Origin: Actinomycetota bacterium
Lineage (GTDB): Bacteria; Actinomycetota; Acidimicrobiia; Acidimicrobiales; Ilumatobacteraceae
Assembly (NCBI GenBank): GCA_017856115.1
Contig: JAFMFM010000009.1
Location: 1-52,779 of the forward strand
DNA length: 52,779 nucleotides
Direction of reading: 5' to 3'
The notes under the pieces are model-generated. The model worked only from the letters and a program-made list of their open reading frames with translations, searched no databases and had not been told where the DNA came from. Shown one piece after another: positions 18,853 to 45,847 of the stretch; the first letter of the stretch is position 1, and each line of letters starts with the position of its first letter. Both the position numbers and the translations under genes were made by a program.

Positions 18853-19332
18853 ATGACCGGTGATCGCATCGAAGTGTCCGACACGCCGCTTGACGTCGCG
18901 GAGTTGTACGAATGGGCACTCTTGCCCGAGTGCGGTGCGGTGGTCGTGTTTTCCGGCACGGTTCGCAACCATGCAGAGGGTCGAAGCGGCGTCACCTCGC
19001 TCACATATGAGGCGTACCGCGAGGCTGCCACCACCAAGTTGCAGGACGTCGTGGACGAGGCCCGTCGAAGGTATCCGACGCTCGGTCGGGTGGCGCTGGT
19101 GCACCGATTGGGCGAGTTGGACCTGACGGAATCGTCGGTGGTGGTTGCAGTTTCGGCACCGCATCGACCCGAGGCCTTCGACGCCGCACGGTACTGCATC
19201 GATGCCCTCAAGCAGAGCGTGCCAATCTGGAAGAAGGAAACCTGGAGCAATGGAAACGACTGGGGTACCGGCGCGGTGAACCCGATTCCCGCATCCTCGG
19301 TCGGCGATGCTTCCGCTCGGTCGGCGTCATGA
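18853..19332 (+). CDS. moaE: molybdopterin synthase large subunit MoaE
   Basis: A 159-residue MoaE, which with thiocarboxylated MoaD converts cyclic pyranopterin phosphate to molybdopterin. Conserved stretches are VVFSGTVRNHAEG, YEAYREAA, VHRLGEL and the active-site KQSVPIWKKE with its lysines. No other cofactor gene is adjacent. The only MoaD-like domain in the window is the fused one at 44741. The last bases (ATGA) overlap the next small gene, which may be co-translated. Confidence 0.95.
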   Translation: MTGDRIEVSDTPLDVAELYEWALLPECGAVVVFSGTVRNHAEGRSGVTSLTYEAYREAATTKLQDVVDEARRRYPTLGRVALVHRLGELDLTESSVVVAVSAPHRPEAFDAARYCIDALKQSVPIWKKETWSNGNDWGTGAVNPIPASSVGDASARSAS

Positions 19333-44728: not shown

Positions 44729-44734
44729 TACGCT
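44729..44734 (+). promoter_or_regulatory. -10 hexamer of the moaD-rsiG fusion
   Basis: TACGCT, 6 bases before GTG 44741. It places the mRNA start at the MoaD start codon, so the fused frame is transcribed from its MoaD end. Confidence 0.5.
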
Positions 44735-44740
44735 GACCTC

Positions 44741-45463
44741 GTGGCGCGCTTGCTTCTCTTCGCATCGGCTCGTGAGGCGGCAGGTCGTTCACGCGAAATC
44801 GTTGCCGGCACCACCGTGGCGGAGGTATTGAACACGGCCACGCAGCAATTCGGAACCTCGTTCGAAGCCGTGTTGGGATCCTGCACGGTGTGGCTTAACG
44901 GAGAGGAATGTAGCCCCGACGCCCAGGTGAGCGACACCGACGAAGTAGCGGTCCTGCCGCCGGTATCCGGTGGCGCCGACCTTTCGGCACTCACGCTCGA
45001 GCAAGTGCGGGCGCAGCGACAGGAGTTGCAGGAGGAGGAGGACGCGGTTTCGTTCGCCCGTCGAATGGCACAAGGGCGCCTGGACATCGCTCGCAATGAG
45101 CAGCGTCGTCGCAGTGATGGCGATCTGACGAATGCCGACATCACCGATGGCATCACCCGGGTGTTCGCCGAAGAGCGCGGGTCGGGCTCCAACCGCCCGC
45201 CACGGGACACTGCCGTGATGGTGGATCATCCACTGGTGGCGGAACTCGAGACGTTGTGCGTTGAGAATGGCTTTGGAAGTTTGCGACAACTTGACGACGA
45301 CGAACTGGAGGGTTGCTGTCAGCGACTCTCGGAGTTCGAGTCGCGGGTGTCGTCCCGGAGGAAATCGTTGTTCGGTCAGATCGACGAGTTGTCGAACGAA
45401 CTGGTCCGTCGTTACCGGGCGGAGGCCACGAACATCGACTCGCTGTTCGACGAAAAGCGTTGA
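44741..45463 (+). CDS. MoaD sulfur carrier fused to an RsiG-type c-di-GMP-binding anti-sigma protein
   Basis: A 240-residue fusion without a stop between parts. Residues 1-78 are a complete MoaD/ubiquitin-like domain (LLLFASAREAAG, TVAEVL, WLNGE, DEVAVLPPVSGG) whose Gly77-Gly78 sits where free MoaD ends. Residues 79-240 form a helical hairpin matching RsiG, the anti-sigma that holds WhiG with c-di-GMP. The signature E-x3-S-x2-R-x3-Q-x3-D is exact at Glu100, Ser104, Arg107, Gln111, Asp115. It recurs at Glu200, Ser204, Arg207, Asp215, with Phe211 in place of Gln. ELVRRYR and the acidic end also fit. MoaD needs a free Gly-Gly, so cleavage after 78 or loss of MoaD function is implied. An XRE regulator follows. 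Confidence 0.88.
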   Translation: MARLLLFASAREAAGRSREIVAGTTVAEVLNTATQQFGTSFEAVLGSCTVWLNGEECSPDAQVSDTDEVAVLPPVSGGADLSALTLEQVRAQRQELQEEEDAVSFARRMAQGRLDIARNEQRRRSDGDLTNADITDGITRVFAEERGSGSNRPPRDTAVMVDHPLVAELETLCVENGFGSLRQLDDDELEGCCQRLSEFESRVSSRRKSLFGQIDELSNELVRRYRAEATNIDSLFDEKR

Positions 45464-45496
45464 CAATCCTGCACCGTGTTCTGAGAGTGAGTGGAC

Positions 45497-45847
45497 ATGC
45501 CTGGTAGAAAACGTCCGGATCTCGGTTCGTTCATTCGACAGCAGCGAGAGATTGCACAGCAGTCGATCCGCGACTTGGCCAAGCGCGCCGGAGTCTCGAA
45601 TCCGTACCTGTCGCAGATCGAGCGAGGTCTGCGTAAACCGTCGGCCGACATCTTGCAGCAGATTGCACGCGCGCTGGAGATCTCCGCCGAGACGCTCTAT
45701 GAGCGCGCTGGAATGCTCGATACGAAGGAGTCCCAGGGCAATGCGGTCGTGGATGCCATCGCCACCGACCCACGTTTGTCCGACGACCAAAAGCAGGCAA
45801 TGTTGGCGATCTACCGCAGTTTCGTGGCGGACGACACGACCGATTGA
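45497..45847 (+). CDS. XRE-family regulator (Rv0474-like)
   Basis: A 116-residue DNA-binding protein. The Cro/C1 helix-turn-helix spans about residues 10-65 (FIRQQREIAQQSIRDLAKRAGVSNPYLSQ followed by IERGLRKPS), and a short helical tail (LSDDQKQAMLAIYRSF) follows. The pattern is that of mycobacterial Rv0474. It lies 33 bases after the MoaD-RsiG gene and 47 bases before mshA. Target genes unknown. ATG 45497 is preferred; GTG 45491 is in frame two codons earlier. Confidence 0.9.
   Translation: MPGRKRPDLGSFIRQQREIAQQSIRDLAKRAGVSNPYLSQIERGLRKPSADILQQIARALEISAETLYERAGMLDTKESQGNAVVDAIATDPRLSDDQKQAMLAIYRSFVADDTTD

Follow-up and report, generated by a model that had tools for sequence, protein, structure and literature searches.

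It is known that MoaD, the sulfur carrier of molybdopterin synthase, requires a free C-terminal glycine both for adenylation and for reaching the active site of its catalytic partner MoaE (PMC3227635). The release of fused MoaD or ThiS domains by JAB proteases was predicted as early as 2006 (PMC1779556), and for DR2607, the MoaD-MoaE fusion of Deinococcus, it has been shown that the cut is made by the JAMM protease DRJAMM and is needed for molybdenum cofactor (Moco) synthesis, the mutant accumulating cPMP (PMC8832034). The original prediction on the locus described here had cited the mycobacterial fusion MoaX as being cleaved after its Gly-Gly; in the work on that protein the cleavage was handled as an assumption (PMC3227635), and the Deinococcus fusion is the stronger precedent. 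The sigma factor WhiG, target of the c-di-GMP-dependent anti-sigma factor RsiG, governs sporulation in Streptomyces and type IV pili in Rubrobacter (PMC8325347). No earlier description of a fusion between MoaD and RsiG was found in the open-access literature, to which the search was confined.

Such a fusion is encoded in the window, i.e., the whole stretch of 52,779 nucleotides analysed, which belongs to a member of the Ilumatobacteraceae (Acidimicrobiia). Positions 44741-45463 of the forward strand form a single uninterrupted frame of 240 codons with a GTG start. The features referred to below are the following:

18853-19332, forward strand: moaE, coding for the catalytic partner of MoaD in molybdopterin synthase (PF02391, 129.9 bits; translation)
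44729-44734, forward strand: TACGCT, a -10-like TAnnnT element whose first base lies 12 nt before the GTG (comparison of loci)
44741-44974, forward strand: MoaD domain (ThiS-family beta-grasp), residues 1-78 (Pfam ThiS; beta-grasp in the AlphaFold2 model; Foldseek matches to the MoaD of 6JBZ and 1FM0)
44969-44974, forward strand: codons of Gly77-Gly78, predicted cleavage point and sulfur-carrying terminus (invariance of PPVSGG in the genus)
44975-45460, forward strand: RsiG-type anti-sigma domain, residues 79-240, an antiparallel helical hairpin with a twin c-di-GMP motif (PF22802; 6PFJ/6PFV by sequence and fold)
44975-44995, forward strand: short and variable linker, residues 79-85 (codon alignment of 11 fusions)
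45038-45085, forward strand: c-di-GMP motif 1, EDAVSFARRMAQGRLD, residues 100-115, an exact E(X)3S(X)2R(X)3Q(X)3D whose motif residues are invariant in the genus
45338-45385, forward strand: c-di-GMP motif 2, ESRVSSRRKSLFGQID, residues 200-215, with Q replaced by F as the sole substitution
45491-45847, forward strand: XRE-type helix-turn-helix gene just downstream of the fusion (HTH_3, E=7.5e-14; synteny)

Residues 5-78 match the Pfam family ThiS (PF02597) with E=2.1e-13 and 51.0 bits, against a curated cut-off of 22.5, and MoaD/SAMP1 chains of the PDB align to residues 3-78. From residue 79 onwards, PF22802 (RsiG) is matched in two stretches above its curated cut-off (E=8.9e-24), and the RsiG chain of Streptomyces venezuelae 6PFJ_T (named AmfC) aligns to residues 76-235 with E=4e-15. 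The AlphaFold2 model, built on an alignment of 54 rows, has a mean pLDDT of 90 and contains a beta-grasp domain, a flexible and less certain stretch around Gly-Gly, and two long helices (residues 86-125 and 186-238); the five best Foldseek matches include the RsiG of 6PFV/6PFJ and the MoaD of the mycobacterial MPT synthase 6JBZ. The original prediction had read in this frame a complete MoaD ending in Gly77-Gly78 followed by an RsiG-type hairpin, and both the succession of the domains and the PPVSGG end of the first one (residues 73-78) agree with translation, Pfam, PDB search and the genomes of the same genus.

The twin motif expected of an RsiG was also found as predicted, exact in its first copy and with a single substitution in the second, and the modelled fold of residues 79-240, which could have disproved the assignment, is the antiparallel hairpin known from 6PFV. 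An exact motif of this kind has a chance expectation of 0.0008 per protein of the same composition. Most of the family has F or Y at the Q position of motif 2, and H occurs there in several further families of the class; it has been reported that Q is often replaced by H in the first motif and that H can give the same stacking contact (PMC8325347). The RsiG half may bind c-di-GMP and WhiG, although its motif 2 departs from the canonical Q.

No stop codon interrupts the linker, and no start from which rsiG could be translated on its own is conserved in it; a GTG at residue 89, the one candidate close by for an internal start, is GTA, CTT, TTG or GTT in other species and was rejected. Coding on the opposite strand was also discarded, its frame being broken by a stop. 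A TAnnnT element is located 12-14 nt upstream of the moaD start in nearly all the loci displayed, being conserved across the class, and the TACGCT at -12 is identical in the genus fusions displayed. The fusion mRNA is therefore probably leaderless, starting at the fusion start codon, as would be transcripts from moaD throughout the class.

The genus consists of small aquatic actinobacteria represented by metagenome-assembled genomes (MAGs). All 13 of its genomes match the fusion, which is intact and in frame in 12 of them, the thirteenth match beginning at a contig end. Sister genera keep moaD and rsiG as two adjacent or overlapping genes, and this might suggest that assembly or sequencing had merely joined two neighbours. 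Such an artefact is, however, highly improbable, since the 12 intact copies come from several independent projects and are 65-99% identical to each other, and since both the stop and the start codons are gone, which takes more than one base; a single missed stop is ruled out on the same grounds. Moreover, the linker after Gly-Gly differs in length and sequence between species, so that the open frame is no product of near-identical DNA. Of the two findings that together could have overturned the original prediction, the separate genes of the relatives were thus encountered and the accompanying sequencing error was not. Across 11 fusions, the pN/pS ratio is 0.24 for MoaD and 0.29 for RsiG; these ratios are rough because synonymous divergence is close to saturation (pS about 0.69), and they indicate that both halves are under purifying selection. 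The PPVSGG end shows no amino acid change in the genus (pN = 0 with pS = 0.66). In the light of these genomic comparisons, the fusion is a derived character fixed in the genus.

The search through the Acidimicrobiia that had been proposed returned the fusion in the genus and only once more in the 221 genomes of the family, with no further case among 247 genomes of the class; a sample of 396 genomes from across the phylum contained none outside the genus, so that a phylum-wide distribution is ruled out. The additional fusion (L122, G326:C10:11987-12679) comes from another genus of the same family, in which it is known from one genome of 6.2 Mb. In a tree constructed on MoaD and RsiG, the fusions of the genus form one group with a support of 100, and L122 joins different genera with supports of 94-100; because of this grouping, its origin appears to be independent. 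Two other candidates (G036 and G366) were discarded, a stop being found before rsiG.

The analysis of the relatives reveals a conserved order of genes in the class, consisting of a divergent gpmB, moaD, rsiG, a helix-turn-helix gene, a mshA-like glycosyltransferase gene, ybjN, proC and a SAM-hydrolase-like gene; the XRE-type helix-turn-helix gene adjoins rsiG in most of the loci compared. In other families of the class, moaD and rsiG maintain the same order, separated by as much as about 4 kb; in most of the sister genera, the moaD stop is located 0-2 codons past Gly-Gly, with the rsiG start overlapping or nearby. In genus g13 (L078, G238:C80) and at locus L060, moaD has no adjacent rsiG, and each g13 genome yields a single match, which in the one inspected is MoaD. 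At L063 (G202:C1:135000-148000), moaD ends in TTC TAG AGT ACG, and its reading frame runs on into rsiG, with no ATG, GTG or TTG before the first helix of the latter; an unusual start or readthrough may occur there. The contigs of L058 and L060 (CAMAWR010000009.1 and CAMAQM010000004.1) are titled 'Bifidobacterium breve' and harbor the genes and the synteny of the family, apparently being mislabelled MAG records.

The two glycines are encoded as GGAGGN in 24 of the 45 family genes that are not fused, which places a Shine-Dalgarno-like sequence immediately upstream of the rsiG start; among the fusions, one of 12 has GGAGGN (Fisher p = 0.007, uncorrected for relatedness). In the genes counted, GGA is used for a minority of the glycines. 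Loci of this type include L005, L009 and L011, in which one sequence seems to be at the same time the code for the catalytic tail and the start signal of an overlapping rsiG. This suggests that translation of rsiG was once initiated with the help of the very stretch that encodes the sulfur-carrying tail, a duty that ended with the fusion. The two genes would have been old neighbours that came to overlap in the family, a stage at which the GGAGGN codons could often have acted as the ribosome-binding site of rsiG, and the fusion would have arisen with the loss of the moaD stop and the rsiG start.

The MoaD-RsiG polypeptide is the product of the only MoaD gene found in the genus. A ThiS-family search of the 13 genomes, carried out as the original prediction had proposed, disclosed no second, free MoaD: its only other matches are a CysO-type protein, the other small one, and a protein of 660-720 amino acids, in which the weak match most likely falls on the TGS domain of a large enzyme, e.g., threonyl-tRNA synthetase. 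The MoaD half lies below the NCBIfam moaD equivalog cut-off (47.4 vs 66.15 bits), and it is therefore assigned to the ThiS/MoaD family, its role as MoaD being deduced from its being the sole candidate beside MoaE. MoaE is encoded in 12 of the 13 genomes (in the window, with an intact ALKxxVPIWKKE segment), and molybdenum hydroxylase domains in all 13, with 2-5 each. Since these proteins persist in the absence of any other MoaD, two options are left: cleavage of the fusion, or replacement of MoaD by CysO. The Gly-Gly is internal in the primary product, which thus has no free C-terminal Gly-Gly and could acquire one after processing.

The best explanation is cleavage, because MoaD is functional only when its C-terminal Gly-Gly is free: quite probably, the protein is a bifunctional precursor from which a JAMM-type cut after Gly78 yields working MoaD and RsiG, with equal production of the two as the main effect. 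A JAMM/MPN+ metalloprotease would perform the cut, the freed Gly-Gly would be loaded with sulfur by an E1-like enzyme for use by MoaE, and the released RsiG, together with c-di-GMP, would keep WhiG inactive. The sole MoaD of the genus would then probably become functional only after its release by a de-ubiquitinase-like protease. A JAMM protein (PF14464) is encoded in 12 of the 13 genomes, with the motif HSHx7SxxD in all five sequences checked, that of the window's genome (G000:C16:47435-47773) included, and is the likely cutter; it could also serve CysO alone, and a different cutter, or the replacement of MoaD by CysO, is possible. Residues past Gly-Gly, mostly one or two, are present in 39 of the 45 unfused MoaDs of the family, the other six ending exactly at Gly-Gly, and every CysO read in the genus extends past it as well (GGR, GGC, GGHA or GGNA). 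From these tails, trimming at Gly-Gly seems to be usual in the family, RsiG being in effect a very long tail, and, with a protease already required to take one or two surplus residues off MoaD and CysO, a fusion would have been tolerable. In one genome (L093, G250:C10), CysO carries the repeated tail VPAVAGGQAVSIVPAVAGGQVVSTAVVVDSER after a normal Gly-Gly, the other CysOs of the genus having 1-2 extra residues.

The fusion might instead stay uncut, MoaD having lost the role of sulfur carrier, with CysO serving MoaE, to become a docking or stabilising domain on RsiG. The presence of CysO in the genus, the score below the equivalog cut-off and the good folding of the model as a single chain would all fit; yet this is unlikely, as a mere docking domain would not need an internal PPVSGG that is invariant at saturated synonymous divergence, MoaE and the molybdenum hydroxylases persist, and no Moco synthesis was obtained with mycobacterial CysO in the PMC3227635 assay. 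Cleavage into equimolar MoaD and RsiG, one of the outcomes envisaged in the original prediction, is thus well supported by indirect evidence, namely the sole MoaD, its molybdenum partners, PPVSGG, JAMM and the tails of the family.

As for the regulatory side, the window's genome, the one genome searched for WhiG, contains one strong homologue of it (FliA_WhiG, 250 bits vs a cut-off of 189.6), whose best PDB match is the WhiG of 6PFV (E=7e-66) and whose gene adjoins apparent dprA and rpsB. GGDEF proteins are encoded in 13 of the 13 genomes of the genus, and the window's genome has two proteins with GGDEF-type (AGDEF, SGDEF) and EAL-type motifs. Because of the presence of WhiG and GGDEF proteins, a circuit of c-di-GMP, RsiG and WhiG is plausible. 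The headline of the original prediction went further, with a c-di-GMP switch that reads sulfur status, and is left with co-production and the conserved neighbourhood behind it. The release of MoaD or the loading of its Gly-Gly with sulfur would alter the sequestration of WhiG by RsiG and c-di-GMP, so that the supply of Moco or sulfur, or of zinc through the JAMM protease, would gate the WhiG regulon. Such a link from sulfur or Moco status to WhiG is possible, with a small chance of being right. The class-wide vicinity of moaD and rsiG, their overlap in the family and the two apparently independent fusions suggest that co-production is favoured; however, close synteny and overlap by themselves make a fusion easy, genus g13 and L060 retain moaD without its neighbour, and a scan of the window for promoters of the WhiG type found none. 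Equal production is the sole coupling that follows directly from the anatomy of the gene.

If cleavage into MoaD and RsiG takes place, the only sulfur carrier of molybdopterin synthase in these bacteria would be synthesized in precursor form, its tail being an anti-sigma factor, and a protease of the deubiquitinase kind would stand upstream of both cofactor synthesis and transcriptional control. The tails suggest that trimming of MoaD and CysO past Gly-Gly is the rule in the family, which bears on the origin of ubiquitin-style precursor processing.

The fusion resembles MoaX (Mycobacterium tuberculosis) and DR2607 (Deinococcus radiodurans) in its N-terminal MoaD with an internal Gly-Gly to be freed; in those proteins the partner is MoaE, the next enzyme of the pathway, whereas here it is the anti-sigma factor of a different process. 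With the RsiG (AmfC) of S. venezuelae (6PFJ/6PFV), the c-di-GMP-dependent anti-sigma factor of WhiG, it shares the helical hairpin with the twin motif, in a genome that also harbors a whiG gene, and it differs from it in the N-terminal MoaD domain, the F for Q of motif 2 and the loss of a conserved start codon of its own. The CysO-Mec-CysM system of actinobacteria likewise joins a small Gly-Gly carrier to a JAMM protease, and CysO of the genus also extends past Gly-Gly; the known activity of Mec is to free cysteine from CysO, and the cleavage of a MoaD-RsiG precursor is not known for it. Finally, in ubiquitin and SUMO precursors a ubiquitin-like domain bears a C-terminal extension or a fused protein and is matured at Gly-Gly, whereas in MoaD-RsiG the domain serves as a sulfur carrier and has a regulator for its tail.
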